This document shows positions 4,099 through 38,362 of a stretch of 50,158 nt of DNA, in pieces; position 1 is the first letter of the stretch, and each line of letters starts with the position of its first letter. Under the pieces are notes generated by a model, which did not search any database, was not told the DNA's origin, and was given only the letters and a program-made list of their open reading frames with translations. The translations under genes and the position numbers were made by a program. The stretch is taken from positions 1 through 50,158 of the forward strand of contig NZ_JANFNG010000042.1 in the NCBI RefSeq assembly GCF_024436035.1, in the 5' to 3' direction. The DNA is from Streptomyces humicola. GTDB lineage: Bacteria; Actinomycetota; Actinomycetes; Streptomycetales; Streptomycetaceae.

Positions 4099-5096
4099 CG
4101 TAAGGCCCTCCCTTTCCGTCCGAGTGCGCGTTCGTCGCAGGAGCGCAGCCGGGCGATCCCCGTGTTGAGCGTGACGAGCACCACGATGATCAGGAACATC
4201 ACCCACGCCACGGCGGCGGCCCGGCCCAGGTGGAAGAAACTCCAGCCCTGGTCGTACAGGTAGAGCCCGAGGGTCTGGTACTGGTGCGAGACACCTCCGC
4301 TGGGACCGCGGGTGCCGCCTTCGTACAGCAGAGGCTCGCCGAACAGCTGGGTGGCGCCGATGGTGGAGACGATGACGGTGAAGATGATCGTCGGGCGCAG
4401 CCCGCGTATGGTCACATGTCGGAACTGCTGCCAACGCGAGGCGCCGTCGATGGCGGCCGACTCGTACAGCTCGGCGGGGATGGACTGCATCCCGGCGAGG
4501 TAGATCAGCGCGTTGTAACCGGTCCAGCGCCAGGTGACGATCGTGGAGATGCCGACCTGTGAGGCCCAGGTGCCGTTCTGCCAGTCGATCCGGTGGACGC
4601 CTACGAGCCCCAGGGCCCAGTTGATCAGGCCGTAATCGCGACCGAAGAGCTGGGCGAAGACCAGCGTGGCGGCGGCAACCGAGGTGGCGTACGGCATCAT
4701 CATGGCGACTCGGAAGAAGGTCCGCCCGCGCAGACGGTAGTTGAGCAGGTGGGCCAGGCCCAGCGCCATCAGCAGCTGCGGGATGGTGGAGATCGCCCCG
4801 ATGGTGAAGGTGTTGCGCAGCGCGTTCCAGAAGAACGGATCGTGCAGCAGCCCGGCGTAGTTTCCCAGCCCCGCCCATACTCTCTGCCCGGGGTCGGTCA
4901 GCTCCACCCGGTACAACGAGATGTAGGCGGTGTAGATCAGCGGGAACAGCCCGAAGGCGGCGAAGAGCACGAAGAACGGTGCGACGAACGCGTACGGCGA
5001 GTACTTCACGTCCCACCGACCACGGCGCCGGACGTGGCCAGCGCCACGTCGCTGCGGTCCCACGGTGAACCGGGGAGGGGTTGCTGTCTGTGTCAT
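4095..5096 (-). CDS. Sugar ABC transporter permease (MalF type)
   Basis: A 333-residue CUT1 permease. A basic N-terminus leads to the first membrane span ([20 protein letters not shown]), followed by further spans and an EAA loop ([20 protein letters not shown]). It forms the membrane channel with the MalG-type partner. ATG at 5096 overlaps the stop of the binding-protein gene as ATGA, so the two are translationally coupled. The likely cargo is beta-1,3-linked or mixed gluco-oligosaccharides, by context only. Confidence 0.92.
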
Positions 5097-6400
5097 TGGG
5101 CGACCGCGTTCGCGATGTTATTCATGGCGTTCTGCCAAGCTTGTTGCGGGGAGACGCCCTTCTGCTCGACCTCGGAAAGCGCGTTAGTCAGCGCGGTGTT
5201 GACATCCCCGTCATGCACCCCGAGCACCTGCACCGGCATGTTCTTCGCCGAGTCACCGAAGATCTGGCCGACTGGCGCGTTGTTGAAGTACGGGTCGGTG
5301 TAGTTCTGCACGGCGCCGATGGCCTGGGTGTTGGACGGGAAGTTGCCCTCCTTCTCGAACAGCGTTACCTGCTGATCCTTGGCGGTCAGCCATGCGATCA
5401 GGTCGTAGGCTTGCTTCTGATGCGGGGAGGTCTTCGGGATGGCCAGGTACGAGCCGCCCCAGTTGCCTGTGGCGCCCGGCCCCGGTGCGATGTCCCACCT
5501 GCCTTTCCCCGCCGCGCCGGCCTGGCCCTTGATGTAGCCGGTCATCCATGCCGGACAGGGAAGGGTAGCGAAGGCGCCGGTGCTGAACGCCTGGTTCCAC
5601 TGCGGGGACCACTGGGTCAGCTTCGCGGTGATTCCGGCCCGCGCCGCCTCCACTGAGGTGTCCCAGGCGCTCTTCACCAGCGGATTGCTGCCGTACACCG
5701 GCTTGCCGCTCTGGTCGTAGTAGCGCACCGCCTGCTGGCCCGTCATCGCCGTGAACAAACCCGTCGCGCTGTCCGTCCAAGCACTGTGCGCGGGAGCGTG
5801 AGCCTGGTACTGCTTGCCCAGACCTACATACCCGGTCCAGGTGGACCACTTCTGGGCCAGGGCCGCCCGGTCGGTGGGGAGCCCCGCCTGCTTGAGCAGG
5901 TCCGAGCGATAGCAGATGGCCTCCGGCCCGATATCCGTACCCAGCCCCAGTACAGCCCCGGAGGGGGTGGTCGCGACCTTGATCTTCCACGGCAGGAAGT
6001 TCCTCGTCACCGAGGAGGCACCCAGGGTGTTCAGATCGGTGAAGTCGGATGCCTCCTGCCGCACCACCGTCGCGATCCGCCCGACCTCGACGCCCTGGAT
6101 GTCCCCCAGGCCGCTGTCGGCTGCCAGGTGTGTCTGCAGTGCCTGCCAGTAGTCGGCCTCGTTCTCGGTATCGGTTTCCTTGATCACGATGTTCGGGTGC
6201 AGCTTCTCGTACTCGGCGTACAACCCCGCTTCCTTGTAGCCGAAGGTCCCAAACAGGTCGATGGTTAAGGTGATCTTGCCACCGCCGTTCGCGGAGGAGC
6301 CGCCTGACGAAGAGCCACAGCCGCTGAGCAACGCGGTGGCGGTCAGGACCGTACAACCCAGCGCAACAATCCCGGTTCGCCTCGTTCTGGCCGTGCGCAT
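5093..6400 (-). CDS. Sugar-binding lipoprotein of an ABC importer
   Basis: A 435-residue family 1 solute-binding protein. The signal is MRTARTRRTGIVALG followed by a hydrophobic stretch and the lipobox LLSGC, giving lipidated Cys28. A Gly/Ser-rich tether follows, then an extracellular binding domain (KITLTIDLFGTFGYKEAGL). An ATG 21 nt further upstream also exists, but ATG 6400 has GGGAGG 5 nt away and gives a normal signal peptide. It heads the operon binding protein - MalF - MalG - GH1 - GH64. A repressor-type palindrome lies in its leader (6429-6443). It would capture oligosaccharides released by the secreted GH16 and GH64 enzymes. Confidence 0.92.
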   Translation of the reverse strand: MRTARTRRTGIVALGCTVLTATALLSGCGSSSGGSSANGGGKITLTIDLFGTFGYKEAGLYAEYEKLHPNIVIKETDTENEADYWQALQTHLAADSGLGDIQGVEVGRIATVVRQEASDFTDLNTLGASSVTRNFLPWKIKVATTPSGAVLGLGTDIGPEAICYRSDLLKQAGLPTDRAALAQKWSTWTGYVGLGKQYQAHAPAHSAWTDSATGLFTAMTGQQAVRYYDQSGKPVYGSNPLVKSAWDTSVEAARAGITAKLTQWSPQWNQAFSTGAFATLPCPAWMTGYIKGQAGAAGKGRWDIAPGPGATGNWGGSYLAIPKTSPHQKQAYDLIAWLTAKDQQVTLFEKEGNFPSNTQAIGAVQNYTDPYFNNAPVGQIFGDSAKNMPVQVLGVHDGDVNTALTNALSEVEQKGVSPQQAWQNAMNNIANAVAQ

Positions 6401-9827: not shown

Positions 9828-11195
9828 TCAGCTGCGCTCGATGGTGAGTTTTAGGAAGTGGGTGGAGCAGGAGATGCACGGGTCGTGGTTGCGGATGGCC
9901 TTCTCGCACAGGTTGGTCAGCTCGGCGTCTGTGGGCTCGCCGCTGCCGAGGTGTTCTTGGACAAGGCGGCGCAGGTCCTCCTCGATCGCGCCTTGGTTCT
10001 GCGCGGTGGGCGGGACGAGGTTGGCATCGGTGACCGTGCCGTGGGCGCCGAGGGTGTAGCGGTGGTAGAGCAGGCCGCGGGGTGCCTCGGTGGCTCCGTG
10101 GCCCGTGGCAGCGCGAGGCGGCACATCGAGGTACGGGCGTGGTGGCGGTTCGTAGGTGTCGATGATGCGCAGCGCCTCGTCGACGGCGTAGAGCACCTCG
10201 ACCGCCCTGACGATGATGGAGCGGAAGGGGTTGCGGCATACCGCGCCCTGGCGCGGGTCACCGAGCCCGGCGTCCTGTGCTGCCTGCAGAGCGATCGGGG
10301 AGAGCCACTGTCCGCTGATCGCGTAGCGGGCGAGGGAGCCGGTCAGGTGGCGGTGGCCGTCGAGCAGCGAGTTGAGTGCGGTTGAATGCGGCAGCTGAGT
10401 CTCCACGACGTGGTCACCGAACTCCCGGACGCCGAACGTGCGGGTGGGCAGCGCGCGGTCGGAGTCGGCGGGCAGCCCTGCCGTGCTCGGTGCGCTCATC
10501 GCGGTCGGGTTACCTGATTCGATGGCGTACGTGCCGGGTTCGGCGAGGGCCAACAGCTCATAGTCGCATCCGGCGTCGGGGAAGTCGAAACCCGCGACCC
10601 ACTGCACGGTCTGTTCGGCGTCGTCACGGGCGCGGCGCAGCCTCTCGACGAGCGGGCGCAGTTCGGATGCGGCCGGGGTGCGGTAGAAGCCGCCCAGGCG
10701 GATGTTGACGGGATGGATGGCGCGGCCGCCGAGGAGTTCCATGACGGCGTTGCCGGCTTGCTTGAGGCGCAGGCCGCGCTCGACATCGGTGCGCCAGGTG
10801 CGCGCCAGGTCGATGGCGCTGTCGGCGCCGAGGAAGTCGGGTGCGTGCAGAAGGTAGATGTGCAGGGTCTGACTTTCGATCCATTCGCCGCAGTACAGCA
10901 GGCGGCGCAGCGCCGCGAGTTGTCCGTCCACGATCACGCCGCAGGCGTCCTCAACGGCACGGCAGGCGCTCATCTGGTAGGCAACCGGGCAGATCCCGCA
11001 CACCCGCGAGGTGATGTCCGGCGGCTCGGTGTACGAGCGTCCGCGTAGGAACGCCTCGAAGAAGCGAGGTGGTTCGTAAATCTGCAGCCGGGCCTGGTCG
11101 ACCTGGTCGTCGCGCAGGCGCAGGTGCAGTGCTCCCTCGCCTTCGACGCGGGCGAGGGAGCGGATGCGCAGCACCCTGGATTCGCGGTGGGTCAC
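9828..11195 (-). CDS. hydA: [NiFe] hydrogenase large (alpha) subunit, group 3b type
   Basis: A 455-residue catalytic subunit that splits or forms H2 at a NiFe(CN)2CO centre. The four cysteine ligands are visible: RVCGICP (Cys66, Cys69) and DPCISCSTH (Cys440, Cys443). His446 is the usual limit for C-terminal maturation cleavage, leaving a 9-residue tail. The gene starts at GTG 11195, overlapping the small-subunit stop as GTGA. With the FeS, diaphorase and small subunits it would form a soluble NAD(P)-linked hydrogenase. The gene set matches the HydBGDA enzymes of archaea and the Hyd3 enzyme of mycobacteria. Hyp maturation genes are not in the window. Confidence 0.93.
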
Positions 11196-11989
11196 CCTCG
11201 CAGTTCCTTCCGTGAGGCCGCCTCGAATTCGGGGGCGGCGGTGTTGTAGGTGCGCAGCACCCGCACCACGTCCAGGGTGTTCATCCCGTCGCGGCGCAAC
11301 AGCGGGATGAAGGCAGGGAAGTTAGTGGAGTTGGACGGTCCGAAGCAGCCGTAGCAGCCGCGCCCGTAGGCGGGGCACAGCGCGCCGCAGCCGGCGTGGG
11401 TGACCGGGCCGAGACAGGGCGTGCCGTGAGCGACGATCACACATACGGTGCCGCGTCGCTTGCACTCGAAGCAGACGCTGTGTTCCGGGACGTCCGGGGC
11501 GCGGCCGACGAGGTAGGCGGTGATGACCTCGATCAGCTGGCCGCGGTCGATCGGGCAGCCGCGCAGCTCGAAGTCGACCGGGACGTGGGCGCTGATGGGG
11601 GTGGAGGTCTCCAGCGTCTGGATGTAGTCCGGCCTGGCGTAGACGGCGGCGCGGAATTCGGCGACGTCGGCGTAGTTGCGCAGCGCCTGGACACCGCCTG
11701 CGGTTGCGCAGGCGCCGATGGTCACCAGGCGGCGGGAGACCTCACGGATGTGCCGGATACGCTCGATGTCCTGCTGCGTGGTGACCGAGCCCTCGACCAG
11801 CGACAGGTCGTACGGGCCGGGCCCGGGGGCACTGGAGGCCTCGAGGAAGTAGGAGATCTGCAACTTGTCAGCGATGCCGAGAAGTTCGTCTTCGCAGTCG
11901 AGCAGGGTTAGCTGGCAGCCGTCGCACGAGGCAAACTTCCATACGGCGAGCTTGGGGCGTCCCGCGGGCCGGTCGGTGTCGGCGGTCAT
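11192..11989 (-). CDS. hydD: [NiFe] hydrogenase small (delta) subunit
   Basis: A 265-residue electron-transfer subunit with no Tat signal, so cytosolic. Cluster-ligand motifs are visible: SCDGCQ near the N-terminus, GACATAGG in the middle, and a Cys-rich C-terminal half including [20 protein letters not shown] and GCYGCFGP, enough for three FeS clusters. ATG 11989 sits one base after the diaphorase stop with a GGGAGCTGTGAG ribosome site. It passes electrons from the NiFe centre to the diaphorase subunit. Confidence 0.92.
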
Positions 11990-11990
11990 C

Positions 11991-12827
11991 TCACAGCTCC
12001 CGTACGCCAAGAAGAGGTTGGGCACGGAACCAGTCGACGACAGGACCGTCGCGGCACAGCAGCAGGGGGCCGAGCTGGCAGTGGCCGCAGTGGCCGGTGC
12101 CGCAGTGCATGGTTCGCTCCAGCGACACGCGGATCCGGTCAGGAGCAAGGCCTCGATGGACGAGGTCGCGGGCGGTGGCTCGGATCATGACTTCGGGGCC
12201 GCAGACGAACGCCGCGGTCTCGTGCGGGTCGAAGGCCGCCCGCTCCAGCAGTGTGGTGACGACGCCGACGTCGCCCGTCCACTCCGCGTCCGGACGGTCG
12301 ACGGTGACTAGGACCTGGGCGCCGGCCGCTTGCCAGTTGGCTGTCTCCTGGGTGTAGAGCAGGTCGCGGGGCGTGCGGGCGCCGATCAGGACGTTCAGCC
12401 GCCTGTATCGCTCGGGGGCGGCGAGCGCGGCGAGCACCACCGGCCGCAGCGGCGCCATTCCGATGCCGCCGGCCACCACCAGCACGTCCTGCCCGGTAGC
12501 GGCGGGCAGCTCCCAGCCAGTGCCGAACGGGCCTCGCACGCCGACCATCTCGTCGGTCCGCACCTGATGCAGCGCACCGGAGATCGCGCCGACGGTCCGG
12601 ATGGTGTGGGTGAGGCGCCGGCCCTCGATCCCGCAGACGGACACCGGGATGTCGCCGACGCCGAACGCATAGACCATGGCGAACTGGCCGGGGGCGAACG
12701 GCGGCAGCGCCGTGCCCACCGGCTCCAGCGCGATCGTCGCGACGTCGGGCGCCTCGATCGCGTGCCCCACCACCCGGTACGGCAGGGGAACCCCGGCTGG
12801 GCATACCTGCACCTCGGGCGCGATCAC
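11991..12827 (-). CDS. hydG: Hydrogenase diaphorase (gamma) subunit, FAD/NAD(P) and 2Fe-2S
   Basis: A 278-residue ferredoxin-NADP reductase-like protein. A flavin-binding barrel comes first, followed by a nucleotide fold ([17 protein letters not shown]). The C-terminal 2Fe-2S ligands are Cys242, Cys247, Cys250 and Cys258 ([11 protein letters not shown]...C), as in PyrK and HydG proteins. It connects the FeS chain to NAD(P). The start is GTG 12827, overlapping the stop of the cNMP gene as GTGA. Confidence 0.92.
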
Positions 12828-13339
12828 GACGCATCACCACCGTGCGTGGCTGCTCCGGTGCCGGGTGGCCCGTACAGGTCGAGCAGGCGGATCCGGCAAG
12901 CCCGTAGTCTTCGTCCGATGGCTACCGATGCGACGCATTGGGTTACTGCCAGACCGAATGCGGGATCCTCCGTGATCGCTGCGCGCATCTGACGCGCGTC
13001 GAACTCGTACGCCTCCACCAGGTCGCGGGTGGTCGCGCCCAGGTGCCAGCGGTGCGGCTCGAACAGCCAGGACCAGCCGAGGAGTTCGCCCTCACCGAGG
13101 GTCTCCACGACGACCGCGCCGCGGCCCGGGTCGTGGACGTCGAGGGCGACATGCCCGCAACGCAGGATCCAGAACCGGTCGGCCGGGCCGTCCTCGTCGA
13201 AAATACGGGTGCCAGCCGGGAAGGACGTCTCACGGGAGAAGGAGAGCAGCCGCTCACGATGGCCGGGAGACAGCGCGCCCAGAAATCCATGGCCGACGGT
13301 CGTCCCCGCCTTTTCCGCGCGCTCGTGTGCGTCGTTCAT
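12824..13339 (-). CDS. Cyclic-nucleotide-binding-domain protein in the hydrogenase operon
   Basis: A 171-residue protein with a Crp-type cNMP-binding beta-roll: FPAGTRIFDEDGPADRFWILRCGHVALDV, then the phosphate-cassette-like GEGELLGWSWLFEPHRWHLGATT, then a dimer-type helix. It ends after about 20 further residues with no DNA-binding helix-turn-helix. It therefore looks like a ligand sensor acting by protein contact, or a subunit or regulator of the hydrogenase. ATG 13339 overlaps the FeS-subunit stop as ATGA and its own stop overlaps the diaphorase start, so it is strictly co-translated with the enzyme. A decayed paralogue lies at 35231-35703. The ligand is unknown. Confidence 0.88.
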   Translation of the reverse strand: MNDAHERAEKAGTTVGHGFLGALSPGHRERLLSFSRETSFPAGTRIFDEDGPADRFWILRCGHVALDVHDPGRGAVVVETLGEGELLGWSWLFEPHRWHLGATTRDLVEAYEFDARQMRAAITEDPAFGLAVTQCVASVAIGRRLRACRIRLLDLYGPPGTGAATHGGDAS

Positions 13340-14484
13340 GATGCCGCCTGCTCCGACGCGGCCGCCCGCTCGTCGTTGAGCGCATGCGCTTCCTCGACGA
13401 TGTCGATACCGACCGGGCACCACACGATGCACCGCCCGCAGCCGACACACCCCGAGCTGCCGAACTGGTCATACCAGGTACCAAGCTTGTGAGTGCACCA
13501 CTGCCGGTAGCGACTGCGCGAGGAGGCACGAACCGGTCCACCTTGCAGATGCGTGAACTCCAAGTCGAAGCACGACTCCCAGCGTCGCCACCGTTCGGCG
13601 TGATCTCCGGTGAGGTCGGTGACCTCCTCGGCGGTCGTACAGAAGCAGGTGGGACAGACCATGGTGCAATTCCCGCACGTCAAGCAGCGCGCGGCGACGT
13701 CGTTCCAGCGCTCCGCCTGCAACGTCTCCCGCATCAGAACCTGCAGGTCGACCGGAGGCATGGTCCGGCCCATGCGGCCGACGGCCTCGGCGACACGCTC
13801 GCGAGCCGCCGTCTCGGTGGCGGCATCCGCAAAGCGGCACGGCAGCTCGGCCAGCACCGCCTCGCCCTCCGCGCTGCCCACGCGTACCAGGAAGCGGTGC
13901 CCTTGGTCGTCGATCACCTCGGTCAGCGCCAGGTCGTAGCCATCATCCACGGCCGGCCCAGTGCCCATAGACACGCAGAAGCACGTGGCTCCCGGCTCGG
14001 TGCACTCCACCGCCACCAGGAAAGCCCCCTCGCGCCGCCCACGGTAGGCCCGGTCGGCGTACGGACCGCCGGTGAGCACTCGGTCCTGCACCGCGATAGC
14101 CCGCAGGTCGCACGGCCGCACCCCGAGGAACGCATACGAAGGCGGCGGTGTGTCGTCCTCCGCCATTACCAACTCGCCGTCGGCGCGCCGCTCGGCGCTC
14201 CACTCCCGTACCCGTTGCGGGTGCAGAAACGTCTTCCACGACTGCGGGCCTGCGCTGTGTGCGAACGCGGCTCCGTCCTCGCGCCGCTTCAGCCGGTAAT
14301 GGCCGGCCTCGAGCTCGACTCCCCAGCCGTAGGGGAGTTCGTCGCCGCCACAGACTTCGGCCAGCACGATCGCGCCGTCGCGAACGGTCGGCCCGATCAC
14401 GGTGCGGCCGTGCCCGGTCAGGACGCTGATCAGCGCATCCAGGCCATCTTTGTCGATCACCGAATGGGGGGTGCCATCCGGCAT
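13336..14484 (-). CDS. hydB: Hydrogenase FeS (beta) subunit
   Basis: A 382-residue protein with two C-terminal 4Fe-4S sites: Cys267/270/273/277 (CLTCGNCTMVCP) and Cys346/349/352/356 (CVGCGRCIVWCP). Extra cysteines (CFC at 168-170, TCFC at 279-282) are typical of HydB. It begins the hydrogenase operon. ATG 14484 has GGGAGGTG 5 nt upstream. It would take electrons between the diaphorase and the small subunit or to another acceptor. The promoter region holds a pair of GGGNC-type dyads. Confidence 0.92.
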   Translation of the reverse strand: MPDGTPHSVIDKDGLDALISVLTGHGRTVIGPTVRDGAIVLAEVCGGDELPYGWGVELEAGHYRLKRREDGAAFAHSAGPQSWKTFLHPQRVREWSAERRADGELVMAEDDTPPPSYAFLGVRPCDLRAIAVQDRVLTGGPYADRAYRGRREGAFLVAVECTEPGATCFCVSMGTGPAVDDGYDLALTEVIDDQGHRFLVRVGSAEGEAVLAELPCRFADAATETAARERVAEAVGRMGRTMPPVDLQVLMRETLQAERWNDVAARCLTCGNCTMVCPTCFCTTAEEVTDLTGDHAERWRRWESCFDLEFTHLQGGPVRASSRSRYRQWCTHKLGTWYDQFGSSGCVGCGRCIVWCPVGIDIVEEAHALNDERAAASEQAAS

Positions 14485-14577
14485 GGCGCACCTCCCAGCC
14501 CTGCCAGTGCCGTACCGGACTGTGATCTCGTCCGAGCCTGTCGGGGCCAGTATGGGCGGTCTTCTCTCGGCGGGCAT

Positions 14578-14612
14578 GGGCCTTCGGTCCCCGCTGTGGT
14601 CCGGGTGGCCCC
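14578..14612. promoter_or_regulatory. Paired DevR/DosR-like dyads between hydB and the protease gene
   Basis: GGGCCTTCGGTCCC (14578-14591) and GGTCCGGGTGGCCC (14598-14611) are centred 20 bp apart, between the divergent hydB and protease starts. They fit a GGGNC-N4-GNCCC dyad resembling DosR/DevR boxes. Such a regulator would act on both transcripts. Binding is inferred. Confidence 0.6.
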
Positions 14613-14674
14613 TGTTCATCCCTCACATGGCTCAGCTGGGTCTGCCCCGCGTCGGCCGGGTGATACGAGCGGGA

Positions 14675-15223
14675 ATGATGAGGGTCATGGACGTGCCTGC
14701 TTACCGCGTACCAGGACACCGCGCGCGGATCGCGGTCATCGGGGTCGGCAACGAGTTTCGGCGTGATGACGGCGCAGGTTGGGCAGTGGTCGCTGCCTTG
14801 ACCGAACGGGCCGAGCGGTACCCGGTGCCAGAGGGGACCGCGCTCCGGGTATGCGACGGCGAGCCGGCCCGGCTCATCTCACTGTGGGAAGGTACTGACC
14901 TGGCCATCGTGGTCGACTCGGCTTTCGTCGAGCCTGGGCAGCCCGGCCGTGTCCACCGCCTGGAGCTGGACGGTGACCAACCGGCCCTGGACGGTGGCGC
15001 CACCAGCTCGCACGGGCTCGGGTTCGGCGACGCTGTCGAACTCGCCCGCGTGCTCGGCCGCCTCCCGAGCCGGCTGGTCGTCTACGCGGTGGAAGGCGCC
15101 GACGCCAGCCTGGGCACGGGCCTGTCCGCCCCGGTCGCGTCTGCGGTGGAACCGCTCGCCGAACGGATCGCGGACGAGATCACCCAGTACGCCCGAAACA
15201 ACAACGGGGACAGGGGCGTGTAG
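14675..15223 (+). CDS. Hydrogenase maturation protease (HyaD/HybD family)
   Basis: A 182-residue endopeptidase that trims the C-terminal tail of the large subunit after nickel insertion. The N-terminal IAVIGVGNEFRRDDGAG motif holds the first nickel-binding acidic residue (Asp32); Asp81 (VVDS) and His113 (SSHGLGF) match the other two ligands. It is divergent from the hydrogenase operon and shares its control region. Start choice is uncertain: tandem ATGs at 14675 and 14678 and another at 14687 are all in frame; GAGCGGGA and GATGAGGG are possible ribosome sites. Confidence 0.88.
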   Translation: MMRVMDVPAYRVPGHRARIAVIGVGNEFRRDDGAGWAVVAALTERAERYPVPEGTALRVCDGEPARLISLWEGTDLAIVVDSAFVEPGQPGRVHRLELDGDQPALDGGATSSHGLGFGDAVELARVLGRLPSRLVVYAVEGADASLGTGLSAPVASAVEPLAERIADEITQYARNNNGDRGV

Positions 15224-25931: not shown

Positions 25932-27641
25932 ATGATGAAGCCCATGGCTGGTGAGTGCAGGCGTGGCGCGCGGCGTCTCCCCGTGGCGTCGGTGCTGTTC
26001 TCGTCGTTGCGGGGCTTTCGGTCGCGGTGGGCTGGCGCCGATGTTTTCGCTGCGGTGATGCTGCTCGCGATCGCTGTGCCGGAGCAGTTGGCCACGTCGC
26101 ATCTCGCTGGGATGCCGCCGATCACCGGCTACTACGCTTTCGTTGCGGGCTCTGTGTTCTTCGCACTTCTCGGGTCCAGTCCGCAGATGTCGGTGGGTGC
26201 TGATTCCACTATCGCGCCGCTGTTCGCCGTAGCGGTCGCGCATCTGGCCCCGACCGGGTCGGCCCGCTATGTCGACCTGGTCGGGATCCTAGTGGTGGCG
26301 GTCGGGACCATGGTGGCTATAGTCGGCTTGCTGCGTCTGGGGTGGATCGCCGAATTCCCCTCTGCGCCGATCATCTCCGGGTTCCTTGCCGGTGTAGCCG
26401 TGATCATCGTGGTCCATCAGCTGCCCGATCTGCTGGGGCCTCCTGCGCCGGGAGGCACCACCGTGCACCGTATCTGGGTCATCGCGAGCCGCCTGCCGGA
26501 CGTGAACGGGTGGTCCTTGGGCATCGGGCTGGTCGTGCTGGGGGCAGTGGTGGGCGCTGAGCTGATGGACCGGCGTCTTCCCGGCGCGTTGGTGGGGCTG
26601 ATCGGTTCCACGGTCGTCGTGGCAGCGATGGGTCTTCGGGCCCATGGAGTGGAGGTGCTCGGCGCCTTCGCCCCACCGTGCCCCTCGCTTCGGCTTGGCG
26701 GGGCTGTCGTGGTCCGCGATCCGAAGCGTCGTGCCGGTTGCCGGGGTCGTCTCCCTTGTGGTGATCAGCCAGTCCGCCGCGACTACGCGCGCGTTCGCAG
26801 ACGCAGGCGGTTACGCGGTGAATGTCAGCCGTGACTTCCTCGGCGTGGGAGCCGGCGTGGCCGCGGGGCTGACAGGTTCCTTCCCCGTCAATGCCAGCCC
26901 TCCCCGGACGGCGGTGGTCGCCGCGGCGGGCGGCCGTTCGCAGGGCACTGGGCTGGGCGCAGCGGCGGCGGTGGTGGTCCTGATCCCCAACGCCGGGCTG
27001 CTGAGGGACGTGCCGCTGGCCACGTTGGCAGCGGTGTTGCTCGCCGTGGCCGCACGGATGTTCCCTACCCGGGAGCTGCTGGCCATCGGGCGCTTCGACC
27101 TGTTCGAGTCTGGGCTGGCTGTGATCACCTTGCTCACGGTGGCTCTGGTGGGCGTCGAGCAGGGCATCGGCGTGGCGGTCGGCTTGGCCATCCTGGACCG
27201 TACCCGGCTGAGCGCCCGCCCCCAGTTGCACGTCCTCGGCCGAATCCCGGGCACCACCAGCTGGGCACCGCTGTCCAGTGCCGAGCACGCCGCCCAGGTG
27301 CCCGAGGTCCTCGTGGTGCTCTATGCCACGCCTTGTGGTACGCAAACGCGGTCCACTTCCGTACCCAGCTGGACGCCGCGCTGGCCCGCACCATCGGGAC
27401 TCCGCACGTGGTTGTGCTCGACGCCATCGGCATGAGCGATATCGACTTCACCGGAGCGCGCTCGCTGCGCCAGGTGCTGGACGAACTCGACCGACGCCAC
27501 ATCATGGTGGCCATCGCCCGCGTGGGAGAACGCGTACGAAGAAGCCTCGCCCGGGCCGGCCTGCTCGCGCGCATCGGGGAGACCCGTTTTTTCGCATCGG
27601 TAAACGAAGCGGTCACCGCGATGCGACCAGAGGAGACTTGA
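25932..27641 (+). pseudogene. SulP-family transporter with STAS domain, two frameshifts
   Basis: Three consecutive frames together encode a SulP anion transporter. The first covers the early spans (AGADVFAAVMLLAIAVPEQL, MPPITGYYAFVAGSVFFALLG). One extra C in the CCCC run at 26671-26674 shifts to the second frame (SQSAATTRAFADAGGYAVN, GSFPVNASPPRTAV). One missing T at 27333-27334 shifts to the third, giving the STAS domain (FRTQLDAALARTIGTPHVVVLDAIGM). With two single-base corrections the protein is about 570 residues, full family length. Both sites are homopolymer runs, so sequencing error is a real alternative. Start 25932 is approximate. Confidence 0.8.
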
Positions 27642-33616: not shown

Positions 33617-34339
33617 ATGAATCACCGAACAGTCGCAGACCTCATGACGCACATGGTGGTACGAGTGCACCGCGACACCCCGTTCCAGCAGATCGCCGCG
33701 CTGCTCGACGAGCACGCCATTACGGCCGTTCCCGTGGTGGACCCGGGCGACCAGCCGGTGGGCATCGTCTCCGAGGCCGACCTGCTCCGCAGCCAAGCTG
33801 ATCGGCCGGATCCCTCGGGTCGCAGCGACGCTCCGGCGCGGCCGGCCCACAGGCGCACCAACCCGGACCACAGGCGCACCAAGCGCGAGGCGACGACCGC
33901 GCAGGAACTGATGTCGAGCCCCGTGGTGTGCGCGCGGCCGGAGTGGAACGTGACCGAGGCCGCTCGGGTGATGCTGGACCGCAGCGTCAAACGGCTGCCG
34001 GTCGTCGACGAGGCGGGCCGACTGGTGGGCATCGTCAGCCGCGGCGACCTGATGCGTGTCTTCCTACGCCGGGACAGCGCCATCCGCGACGAGATCATCA
34101 AGGACGTCCTGATCCGGACGATGCGGGAGTCGCCGTCCGCGGTCCGCGTCGATGTCGACAACGGCATGGTCGTGCTCACCGGAAGTGTCGCGCGCGCAAG
34201 TCTGGTCCCGATGCTGGTCGGGCTGTGCCAGAGCGTGGACGGCGTCGTACACGTCGAGCACCACCTGCACTCCGAACACGACGACCTCGCCGATACCAGC
34301 ACGTACGCCTCCGTCGGCACCGAAACCACCGGGACGTGA
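33617..34339 (+). CDS. CBS-CBS-BON domain protein
   Basis: A 240-residue protein with two CBS motifs (HRTVADLMTHMVVRVHRDTP to VGIVSEADLL; AQELMSSPVVCARPEWNVTE to VGIVSRGDLM) and a BON domain near the C-terminus (VRVDVDNGMVVLTGSVAR). CBS pairs usually bind adenosine ligands; BON domains bind membranes or act as adaptors. The linker between the CBS motifs carries a short duplication, HRRTNPD/HRRTKRE. It lies between the dehydrogenase and the XRE fusion gene. A related gene of similar layout is at 35700-36395. Confidence 0.88.
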   Translation: MNHRTVADLMTHMVVRVHRDTPFQQIAALLDEHAITAVPVVDPGDQPVGIVSEADLLRSQADRPDPSGRSDAPARPAHRRTNPDHRRTKREATTAQELMSSPVVCARPEWNVTEAARVMLDRSVKRLPVVDEAGRLVGIVSRGDLMRVFLRRDSAIRDEIIKDVLIRTMRESPSAVRVDVDNGMVVLTGSVARASLVPMLVGLCQSVDGVVHVEHHLHSEHDDLADTSTYASVGTETTGT

Positions 34340-34345
34340 CAGGCA

Positions 34346-35023
34346 ATGAACGGCAAGGCGACGCGGCGGGTGAATCCAGGTGACATCGGCCGACGAATCG
34401 CCGAGCGGCGCCGGCAACTCGGCCTGACCCGCCAGGAGACGGCCGAACGCGCCGGCATGTCCGACAGCTACCTGCGCTACGTCGAGGAGCAACCGGCCGA
34501 CTTCGACATGCACGGACTGCTGCAACTCGCCGGCGCATTGGACACCACGGCCTCCGAACTCCTCGGCGGCGGCGTCGATCTGCCACCCGGCACCGGCAGG
34601 GCGGCCTACCACCCGCGGCTTGAAGCGATGGACCGCGACGAATGTCTCACCCGAATCTCTACCCATGGGCTCGGCAGGGTGGCGGTGACCACCGCCGACG
34701 GCCCCGCGATCCTCCCGGTCAACTATGCGGTCGTCGACGGCGCCATCGTCTTCAGAACCGCTCCCGGCAGCCTGCCCGCAGCGGCAGCCGGGCGCGAAGT
34801 GGCCTTCGAGGTCGATCACTTCGATGAAGCACTCAGCCAGGGTTGGAGTGTGCTCCTCGTAGGTGAGGCGGAGCGCATCAGCGATCCCGCGGTGTCACGA
34901 CAGCTGGACGAACGCGCCTACTCCAAGCCATGGGCCGGCGGAGAGCGCGAGGTATGGGTGCGCATCGAACCGCTGAAGGTCACCGGACGGCGGATCCTCA
35001 CCGGCACCGCTCACGACAGCTGA
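34346..35023 (+). CDS. XRE helix-turn-helix fused to a flavin-binding split barrel
   Basis: A 225-residue fusion. Residues 11-70 form an XRE DNA-binding domain (IGRRIAERRRQLGLTRQETA, then SDSYLRYVEEQPADFDMHGLLQL). Residues 85-220 resemble pyridoxamine 5'-phosphate oxidase-like FMN or F420 split barrels (RISTHGLGRVAVTTADGPAI, LPVNYAVVDGAIVFRTAPGS, VLLVGEAERISDPA). It may sense a flavin or redox ligand and regulate transcription. The gene overlaps no neighbour but starts 6 bp after the CBS-BON stop, so it is in the dehydrogenase operon. Confidence 0.88.
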   Translation: MNGKATRRVNPGDIGRRIAERRRQLGLTRQETAERAGMSDSYLRYVEEQPADFDMHGLLQLAGALDTTASELLGGGVDLPPGTGRAAYHPRLEAMDRDECLTRISTHGLGRVAVTTADGPAILPVNYAVVDGAIVFRTAPGSLPAAAAGREVAFEVDHFDEALSQGWSVLLVGEAERISDPAVSRQLDERAYSKPWAGGEREVWVRIEPLKVTGRRILTGTAHDS

Positions 35024-35041
35024 CGGAAGGAGGGCTTGGCG

Positions 35042-35130
35042 ATGCTGATGCATCGGACGGTTGAGGAGGTTATGACGAGCACGCCGATAAGTGTCGGCCT
35101 TGACGCACCGTTCAAGACCGCCCTCGCGGC
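35042..35130 (+). pseudogene. 5' remnant of a CBS-domain gene
   Basis: After GGAAGGAGGG, ATG 35042 opens MLMHRTVEEVMTSTPISVGL and continues DAPFKTALAA, a typical first CBS motif like that of 33617-34339. Homology stops near 35130. The DNA then runs toward the 3' end of a decayed opposite-strand gene. It was probably the fourth gene of the dehydrogenase operon. Confidence 0.7.
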
Positions 35131-35230
35131 AGGACGGTCGACGGTCTGCCTCGTGCCTTGTTCACCGCGTGCGTCACACAGCCTCCTCGTCTACGCTGCG
35201 TCCGGCGGGACCACTGGTCTTCGGAACGTG

Positions 35231-35703
35231 TCAGAAGCGGGTGCCGCTGCAGTATGGGGCGTACAGGTCCAGCAGCCGGGTACGCGCGGCCATCAGGCGG
35301 CGTCCGATGACCGCTGCAACACCGAGTGCGACCGCTTGCCCGAGTTCGGGGTCTTCCGTGCACAGCGCGCGGACCGCGTTGGCGTCGAACTCGTCGGCCG
35401 CCACCTCGGTCAGCGCCCGCGCGCCCAGGTGCCACACATGCGGCGGGAACAGCCAGGACCAGCCGAGCAGATAGCCGCTGCCGAGCACCTCGACATCGGC
35501 GGCTCGGCGTCCGGGGACGTGCATGTCGAGTGCGACCCGGCCGGAGCGCAGAACCCAGAAGCGGTCCGCCCTATCGTGCTCTTCAAAGATCCGCAGGCGC
35601 TGGCGAAGCTCACCTCATGACCGAGCCTGATGAGGGCTTGCCGTTTGTCGTCCGGGAGGGTGTGAAAGAAGCCGCTGCCCAGGGCGGTGCCGGGGCCGGT
35701 CAT
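35231..35703 (-). pseudogene. Frameshifted cNMP-binding-domain protein, paralogue of the hydrogenase one
   Basis: ATG 35703 overlaps the stop of the upstream CBS-BON gene as ATGA. It reads MTGPGTALGSGFFHTLPDDK and continues RQALIRLGHEVSFAS before the frame changes near 35600. The other frame continues LRIFEEHDRADRFWVLRSGR, GYLLGWSWLFPPHVWHLGAR and IGRRLMAARTRLLDLYAPYC. Repaired, it gives about 157 residues, colinear with the cNMP protein of the hydrogenase operon and likewise lacking a helix-turn-helix. The frameshift may be real or a read error. Confidence 0.8.
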
Positions 35704-36395
35704 GACGGTCGTCCTTCCTGGCCGAGGGTCTCCGGGCGCCACTGCTGCCGACGGGTGGCGGTCAGGCGGCATTCGACGTCCACGACGCCCTCCACCGCGC
35801 GGGTGAGGCGCGCGGCGATGGGGATCAGCGCGGGGTCGGGGATGTGGCCGCGCAGCGTGACCGCGCCTTCGTCCACCGTCACCTCCGGCGGCGGCGAGAG
35901 GTTGGGGAAGAGCAGCCCGATCACGTCGCGGCGGACCTCGTCTTCGATGTCCAGGTCGGTGCGGAGGAAGACCTTCAGTAGGTCGCTGCGGCTGACAACC
36001 CCGGCCAGGTGCCCCTCGGCGTCGATCACCGGCAGCCGCTTGATGCGGCCGTGCGCCATGACCCGCGCGGCCTGGGCGAGCGTGGCGTCGGCATGCACGG
36101 TCAGCGCAGGGGTGGACATCAGCTCTTCGGCGGTGGTCGCCCCCGCCTTGGCGAGGTCGGCGAGGCGGGCGGTCTGCTCTATGCGGGAGGGGTCGCTGTC
36201 GCGGAACTCCTGCTTCGGCAGCAGGTCGGCCTCGGAGACCACACCGATCACGCGGCCCTCGCCCTCCAGCACGGGCAGCGCACTGACCTTCCACTGCTCC
36301 ATCGTCCGCACGATCTCCTTGAACGAGGCGTTGGGGCCGACGGCGACGACGGTCTGCGTCATCACGTCGCTGACGATATGCGGGCTGTGCGGCAT
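35700..36395 (-). CDS. CBS-CBS-BON domain protein
   Basis: A 231-residue protein with two CBS motifs (VSDVMTQTVVAVGPNASFKE to VIGVVSEADLL; AEELMSTPALTVHADATLAQ to LAGVVSRSDLL) and a C-terminal BON domain (VTVDEGAVTLRGHIPDPALI). ATG 36395 (MPHSPHIV) is preferred over 36407, since GATGAGG lies 6 nt upstream. It is the first gene of a two-gene unit with the decayed cNMP gene. A GGGNC-type pair lies between it and the divergent USP. Confidence 0.88.
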   Translation of the reverse strand: MPHSPHIVSDVMTQTVVAVGPNASFKEIVRTMEQWKVSALPVLEGEGRVIGVVSEADLLPKQEFRDSDPSRIEQTARLADLAKAGATTAEELMSTPALTVHADATLAQAARVMAHGRIKRLPVIDAEGHLAGVVSRSDLLKVFLRTDLDIEDEVRRDVIGLLFPNLSPPPEVTVDEGAVTLRGHIPDPALIPIAARLTRAVEGVVDVECRLTATRRQQWRPETLGQEGRPS

Positions 36396-36470
36396 GGTGG
36401 GCCTCATCTCAGCGAATCAGGGGAGAGATCCTTCACGGCCAGCGTCAGGCGACGGGCCCCCTCTGCCTAT

Positions 36471-36505
36471 GGGTCTTTCGGCCCGCGCTGAGGCCGAACC
36501 GCCCA
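36471..36505. promoter_or_regulatory. Paired DevR/DosR-like dyads between divergent CBS-BON and USP genes
   Basis: GGGTCTTTCGGCCC (36471-36484) and AGGCCGAACCGCCCA (36491-36505) are centred 20.5 bp apart, 76 bp from the CBS-BON start and 82 bp from the USP start, so they could serve both. A further GC-rich match, GGACCCCGTCGGGCC, lies at 36506-36520. Confidence 0.58.
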
Positions 36506-36587
36506 GGACCCCGTCGGGCCCGACTGGCCAGCGGCGGCCACTGCCGGAAACCTGGAAGCGAGGGGATCGCGAAAGGGGCGACGTGCG

Positions 36588-37067
36588 ATGGCCGACCAGG
36601 AGGCGACGGTCCCGCGGATCGTGGTGGGCGTCGATGGCTCCGAGCCGTCGAAGGCTGCTCTGCGGTGGGCGCTACGGCATGCTGAGCTGACCAGTGGAGT
36701 GGTCGAGGCCGTGATCGCGTGGGAGTTCCCGTACTTGCGGTACGGATACGGCTGGACTCCTCCCACGGCAGGAGCAGACGAGCTGTTCGACTACGAAGGC
36801 ACCGCCGAGGTGATCCTTACGCGAGCGATCGACGAGGTCGTCGGCACCGGAGGCCGGAACAGTATCCGCACGCGGGTCGCGCGGGGCAATGCGGCAGCCG
36901 TGCTGTTGGAGGCCGCGCGCGGGGCGGAGTTGCTGGTGGTGGGGAACCGCGGGCACGGTGGGTTCGCCGAGGCACTGCTGGGTTCGGTCGGTCAGCACTG
37001 TGTTCAGCACGCCCCCTGCCCGGTGGTTGTCATCCGCGGCCAAGGCGCTCATGGACGCGCTGCGTAA
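36588..37067 (+). CDS. Single-domain universal stress protein
   Basis: A 159-residue USP. It starts PRIVVGVDGSEPSKAALRWA and has the complete ATP-binding motif GNRGHGGFAEALLGS, followed by HAPCPVVVIRG. It is one of two intact USP types here; the others are tandem. It is divergent from the CBS-BON gene and convergent with the YbhN-like gene, 14 bp away. Confidence 0.93.
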   Translation: MADQEATVPRIVVGVDGSEPSKAALRWALRHAELTSGVVEAVIAWEFPYLRYGYGWTPPTAGADELFDYEGTAEVILTRAIDEVVGTGGRNSIRTRVARGNAAAVLLEAARGAELLVVGNRGHGGFAEALLGSVGQHCVQHAPCPVVVIRGQGAHGRAA

Positions 37068-38327: not shown

Positions 38328-38362
38328 GGGCCGAAAGTCCCTGGCGGGGGCCCATCGGCTCT
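38328..38362. promoter_or_regulatory. Paired DevR/DosR-like dyads
   Basis: GGGCCGAAAGTCCC (38328-38341) and GGGCCCATCGGCTCT (38348-38362) are centred 20.5 bp apart, between the YbhN-like gene and the DUF1918 remnant. The second box is 14/15 identical to the one before the aldolase (18606-18620). Confidence 0.65.

Follow-up and report, generated by a model that had tools for sequence, protein, structure and literature searches.

The window, i.e., the whole stretch of DNA that was analyzed (50,158 nucleotides), carries on its minus strand an operon in the order HydB-CNBD-HydG-HydD-HydA (Table 1), in which an intact open reading frame (ORF) for a protein consisting of a cyclic-nucleotide domain (CNBD) only lies between two hydrogenase subunit genes. 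Homologs of HydB, HydG, HydD, and HydA in this order mark a group 3b-like [NiFe] hydrogenase, with all subunit matches falling below the NCBIfam equivalog cut-offs. A preliminary description of this DNA had claimed a 171-residue cNMP protein in a hydrogenase operon, overlapping both neighbors by ATGA and GTGA and lacking the Crp helix-turn-helix (HTH), and all three points were borne out by the ORF listing, the window letters, and Pfam. Letters 13336 to 13339 (TCAT; ATGA on the coding strand) hold the HydB stop and the CNBD start, and letters 12824 to 12827 (TCAC; GTGA on the coding strand) hold the CNBD stop and the HydG start. The only Pfam domain in the protein was cNMP_binding (PF00027; 44.8 bits), and no HTH was detected by Pfam at an E value of ≤0.001. 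An identity as a Crp/Fnr transcription factor was rejected, given Pfam results without an HTH and a structural model without any element past the helix of residues 126 to 156.

Table 1. Features of the CNBD-containing hydrogenase operon and of the paralog region in the window
Feature	Position	Strand	Basis and remarks
HydA/ShyA-like NiFe large subunit	9828..11195	-	ORF and profile matches
HydD/ShyD-like small subunit	11192..11989	-	Start inferred; ORF extends to 12148; searched as 11192-12052
HydG/ShyC-like FAD/NAD(P) and 2Fe-2S subunit	11991..12827	-	ORF and profile matches
CNBD-only protein, 171 aa	12824..13339	-	ORF, Pfam, AF2 model
Long C-terminal helix, residues 126-156, with conserved RL...R.RLLDLY	12872..12964	-	Alignment and model
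Rebuilt phosphate-binding cassette, residues 88-104 (GWSWLFEPHRWHLGATT)	13028..13078	-	Alignment; short helix 89-92 in model
HydB/ShyB-like 4Fe-4S subunit	13336..14484	-	Start inferred; ORF extends to 14619
DosR/OsdR-like box GGGCCTTCGGTCCC between HydB and protease	14578..14591	.	Pattern search; weak
Hydrogenase maturation protease, divergent	14675..15223	+	Start approximate; searched as 14492-15223
Frameshifted CNBD paralog	35231..35703	-	Two stops; family match in another frame
CBS-BON protein, upstream of paralog	35700..36407	-	Pfam domain scan

The AF2 model of the CNBD protein (60 sequences; mean pLDDT, 88; pTM, 0.79) comprises a CNBD and the long helix, with the short helix lying in the cassette; the predicted architecture is accordingly that of a CNBD extended at its C terminus by a long helix, without an HTH. 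The top VIA-align match was Gmet_1532 (3mdp; Z score, 18.2; 2.2 Å over 125 residues), whereas Foldseek ranked cAMP-bound Crp-type proteins first, and plant GORK was also among the structural matches. The presence of cAMP-bound Crp/GlxR among the closest solved folds, together with the Pfam score, speaks for a genuine sensor of cAMP/cGMP by which the hydrogenase would be switched directly; this reading is nevertheless highly improbable, since Trp replaces the cassette Glu and Arg, both of which are kept by the Crp of the same genome. With that Crp as the alignment reference, the canonical Glu position is occupied by Trp in 102, Ala in 3, and Leu in 1 of 106 rows, and the canonical Arg position by Trp in 104 rows, in a set of which much was chosen by motif. 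W89 and W98 stand at these places in the window protein. Seven residues (A53, G62, G88, W91, P95, W98, and R144) show no variation among 22 relatives that were found without a motif filter (set A1). A larger contig set comprised the best 80 of at least 587 confirmed CNBD loci, nearly all from Streptomycetaceae, and was chosen by the motif G[WA]SW[LM][FVI][PEA]P[YH], so that motif invariance in it is partly built in. The cassette Glu-Arg pair of cAMP/cGMP-binding CNBDs is thus lacking and, because both residues are lost, canonical cyclic nucleotide binding or control appears unlikely from the sequence. Given these replacements, the earlier proposal of direct cyclic-nucleotide control of the hydrogenase is not supported. 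A literature search mostly confined to papers outside subscription yielded no published account of the altered cassette.

The gene order around the CNBD gene was surveyed in the window's own phylum, in named contigs, and in plasmids, with order counts resting on the per-domain positions of matches. Fifty of 200 genomes of the window's family had a HydG match at the cut-offs used, and 42 of these 50 loci showed the HydB-CNBD-HydG order, which is more than a chance arrangement would give. In the other eight, the CNBD gene is missing and HydB adjoins HydG; one of these genomes (G345) has CNBD copies elsewhere, one (G198) has no CNBD copy, and the remaining six are absent among the matches listed for the CNBD family. 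In a survey of 198 genomes of the phylum (CNBD match cut-off, E ≤ 1e-15), the protein was matched in 20 genomes, of which 13 belong to families other than that of the window; 12 of these 13 have it between HydB and HydG. HydA as the query matched 47 of the 198 genomes. Forty regions from these genomes (the window's own genome and six others were left out) were compared, of which 35 hold both HydB and HydG, with the CNBD gene between them in 13 and not in 22. A Burkholderia savannae plasmid, from a second phylum, has the same HydB-CNBD-HydG order, and matches on Paraburkholderia and Pandoraea plasmids coincide wholly or partly with genes annotated as CNBD, 4Fe-4S, and FAD/NAD(P)-binding. The lack of conservation in related operons that would have counted against the preliminary description was not seen: the order is kept from family to family and recurs in a second phylum, although the gene is missing from a part of the family and phylum loci. 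Among 34 distinct loci left after manual removal of duplicates, the CNBD gene had a four-base overlap with HydB in 23 and with HydG in 25, counts that the choice of starts favors. In L029/L077, the hydrogenase-operon CNBD gene, too, seems to be split over two frames.

Since the CNBD gene is missing from other group 3b operons, it is accessory, and close relatives without it (8 of 50 family loci; L071 to L073 and L082 in the HydA tree) show that the enzyme can function in the absence of the CNBD protein. In the HydA tree of 54 loci, CNBD carriers required 3 label changes versus a shuffled mean of 16.6; L078, L097, L101, and L108 were dropped as incomplete, L109 was left out, and L127 and L169 were entered as "other" though both carry the gene. 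The tree fits a putative history of one gain in the crown clade followed by losses in L071 to L073 and L082. Six changes were required in a wider HydG-plus-HydD tree, from which 8 of 91 loci were dropped and in which L100 was counted as a non-carrier. No columns of HydB, HydG, HydD, or HydA consistently tracked CNBD absence, the HydB and HydG values of L071 to L073 being only slightly raised. Among the loci compared for junctions, no fusion of a CNBD to HydB or HydG was found, and the one shared HydB-HydG frame (L090) contains no CNBD. A profile scan for CNBDs in 35 loci that lack the gene between HydB and HydG, or are incomplete there, added only L098, one of the 22 phylum regions mentioned above. 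This deep group 3b operon encodes a distant CNBD protein downstream of HydA (4978-5421, minus strand), in which W and F occupy the cassette positions. Partial HydB, CNBD, and HydG genes along with a fragment of HydD were seen in L153 (probably the same contig as L238), where HydA is absent from the 14-kb stretch; this is perhaps a decaying hydrogenase operon.

Many CNBD copies occur outside such operons. A CNBD-family member was found in 112 of the 200 family genomes versus 50 with a HydG match at the cut-offs used, so not every copy can be acting with this hydrogenase. Among the best 80 of at least 587 loci, a HydB-plus-HydG pair lies beside the CNBD gene in 19 and is absent in 61, i.e., many copies have no such module adjoining, and 44 of the 80 have a CBS-BON homolog without the pair (CBS-BON and universal stress labels at other loci denote phmmer similarity to window proteins). 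The window holds a case of its own. The preliminary description had placed a paralog at 35231 to 35703 next to a CBS-BON gene; the neighbor is real, its stop overlapping the paralog start, but the paralog is not one open frame. Two stops interrupt frame 1 and the family match resumes in another frame, so the gene is frameshifted in this assembly, as either a pseudogene or a sequencing error. An intact sister of the paralog lies on another contig of the genome (contig C44; L007/L031). The surrounding region (33617 to 37067) is a cluster of CBS-BON and pyridoxamine-oxidase-like/HTH genes that resembles a dormancy-type island; a universal-stress-like protein within it was named from sequence alone. 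The suggestion of a wider family of small CNBD proteins near CBS-BON genes holds as a neighborhood pattern, such proteins being common near CBS-BON homologs in Streptomyces.

These neighborhoods bear on a further reading, namely, that the protein is a free-standing redox or nucleotide sensor that is only coexpressed with the hydrogenase and acts with CBS-BON and stress proteins. The 44 loci just mentioned fit it, as does the "Crp-like" SCO0168, a predicted OsdR target that the available part of PMC5069765 lists beside a universal stress gene, a layout that recurs in many Streptomyces loci; SCO0168 of S. coelicolor may be one of the small CNBD proteins near CBS-BON homologs. We regard a free sensor as quite unlikely, since 12 of the 13 matched loci outside the family sit in a hydrogenase operon and, in the CNBD tree of 108 rows, the early-branching rows are hydrogenase-linked except for two long-branch rows (L069 and L027); the orphan role thus looks derived. 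Rows from loci near CBS-BON homologs or from other contexts fall within Streptomycetaceae, in a tree with few columns, weak support, and some hydrogenase-linked rows among the CBS-linked ones. From this branching, the CNBD proteins beside CBS-BON look as if they derive from the hydrogenase version. A CBS-BON homolog follows HydA in six Streptomyces loci (L149, L164, L166, L182, L186, and L189) among the best 80 of at least 587, and in L151 (7010 to 8850) CNBD, HydG, and CBS-BON genes adjoin one another, with HydB, HydD, and HydA absent from the stretch. These arrangements suggest that CNBD/CBS-BON pairs may be remnants of hydrogenase operons. L151 was set aside as a sign of a partnership with HydG, as it is a single case and its HydG lacks the C-terminal Fe-S cysteines.

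Promoter motifs were also searched. A first DosR/OsdR-like pattern had no occurrence in the window. A pattern shaped after inspection of the promoter (GGGNCYTNNGNCCC) gave four boxes (14578 to 14591, 26630 to 26643, 36471 to 36484, and 38328 to 38341) versus 0.79 expected in the window, of which one lies upstream of the hydrogenase and one upstream of the CBS-BON gene, and a looser pattern gave nine versus 5.28 expected. Upstream of HydB, the strict box occurred in 2 of 40 loci (shuffled mean, 0.37; maximum, 2) and the loose box in 9 of 40 (shuffled mean, 3.5; maximum, 10), and no site scoring ≥7 was found at the hydrogenase promoter with a matrix built from 10 published OsdR sites. The box was dropped as proof of shared control because the pattern was fitted post hoc and is weak across relatives.

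Given the fixed place of the CNBD gene between those of the electron-input subunits, its spread over many families and to a second phylum, and the precedent of HoxI (see below), the protein is best explained as an accessory subunit of the HydB/HydG module. We therefore somewhat favor the view that the CNBD protein is a putative fifth subunit, accessory and dispensable, of an NAD(P)-linked [NiFe] hydrogenase of the bacterial group 3b-like kind; the loss of the cAMP-holding residues and the place in the operon indicate that it is probably an overlooked part of the enzyme and not a cAMP sensor. The protein would homodimerize via its long helix, and the dimer could dock on the HydB/HydG electron-input module, as HoxI does on the HoxFU diaphorase, where it may tune or stabilize the module. 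The protein's own Trp side chains may plug its pocket, which may alternatively have been reshaped to accept a different ligand; NAD(P)(H) would be the most obvious candidate. An assembly or maturation chaperone for this module that is absent from the finished enzyme would account equally well for the tight linkage to HydB and HydG and for the lineages that dispense with the gene. We consider a chaperone rather unlikely, as 61 of the best 80 of at least 587 loci lack the pair beside the CNBD gene and the HoxI precedent is a bound subunit (PMC3702609, available part).

A broader extension of the subunit reading can be offered tentatively. The Trp-cassette CNBD class might generally serve as the fifth, regulatory subunit in a large bacterial group 3b clade, recruited independently of HoxI, and either read a non-cyclic-nucleotide ligand (e.g., NADP(H)) or, with its pocket self-plugged, work as a lever on the flavin module of HydG; the Streptomyces copies might have outlived the hydrogenase and been reused beside CBS-BON proteins in dormancy-type islands. 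A conserved fifth gene that is missing in some lineages is a reason to repurify the group 3b enzyme from a carrier host. If the protein is a subunit, it would provide a handle on the switch of electron flow between H2 and NAD(P)H. The altered cassette also cautions against annotating such CNBD proteins as cAMP sensors.

Several known systems resemble the protein in part. KCNH and plant Shaker channels have CNBDs that do not bind cyclic nucleotides; they offer a precedent for a CNBD pocket unused for cAMP, although these channels are unrelated and the resemblance is one of principle only. The Crp/Fnr regulators (GlxR and M. tuberculosis Crp) share the CNBD fold and the long helix; the window protein differs from them in having no DNA-binding domain and in having lost the cassette Glu and Arg. 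Gmet_1532 of Geobacter metallireducens (3mdp), which scored best of the solved structures by single-domain profile match (E = 7.5e-24), likewise lacks the Glu and Arg in its cassette (GVSSLIKPYHY) but, unlike the window family, has no Trp at the motif positions; a paper on it was sought by name, and none was found.

Group 3b hydrogenases are NAD(P)-linked enzymes that are described as having four subunits, and those of M. smegmatis and P. furiosus have four subunits (PMC13332983, available part). All four subunits of the group 3b HydBGDA of Pyrococcus sulfhydrogenases have homologs in the window operon, in order, with matches below the NCBIfam equivalog cut-offs, and the window operon differs in the extra CNBD gene between HydB and HydG. 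In the accessible text of the sources, a Rhodococcus equi group 3b cluster lists a CNBD gene (PMC13332983), and its counterpart in the group 3b cluster of a methanotroph is named HoxI and thought to bind NADP (PMC12319191).

HoxI of the group 3d soluble hydrogenase of Cupriavidus necator was described as a diaphorase-bound homodimer that acts as an NADPH activation site (PMC3702609, available part). It was rejected as a member of this sequence family, i.e., as an ortholog: it groups with Crp in the tree (on long branches) and scores below the host's own Crp with the family HMM (41 versus 63 bits). The homology is at the domain level (hhalign probability, 95; BLASTP E value, 6e-4). HoxI also lacks the cassette Arg, having His instead, but retains the Glu, unlike the window family, and hoxI follows a maturation protease gene, whereas the window CNBD gene lies between two electron-input genes. 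By the tests made on sequence, the window protein would thus be HoxI-like in outline without being a member of the HoxI family. Lying outside this family, HoxI is still the closest analog: like the window protein, it is a CNBD-only protein of similar size (167 aa) whose gene shares an operon with a soluble, NAD(P)-linked hydrogenase of group 3.
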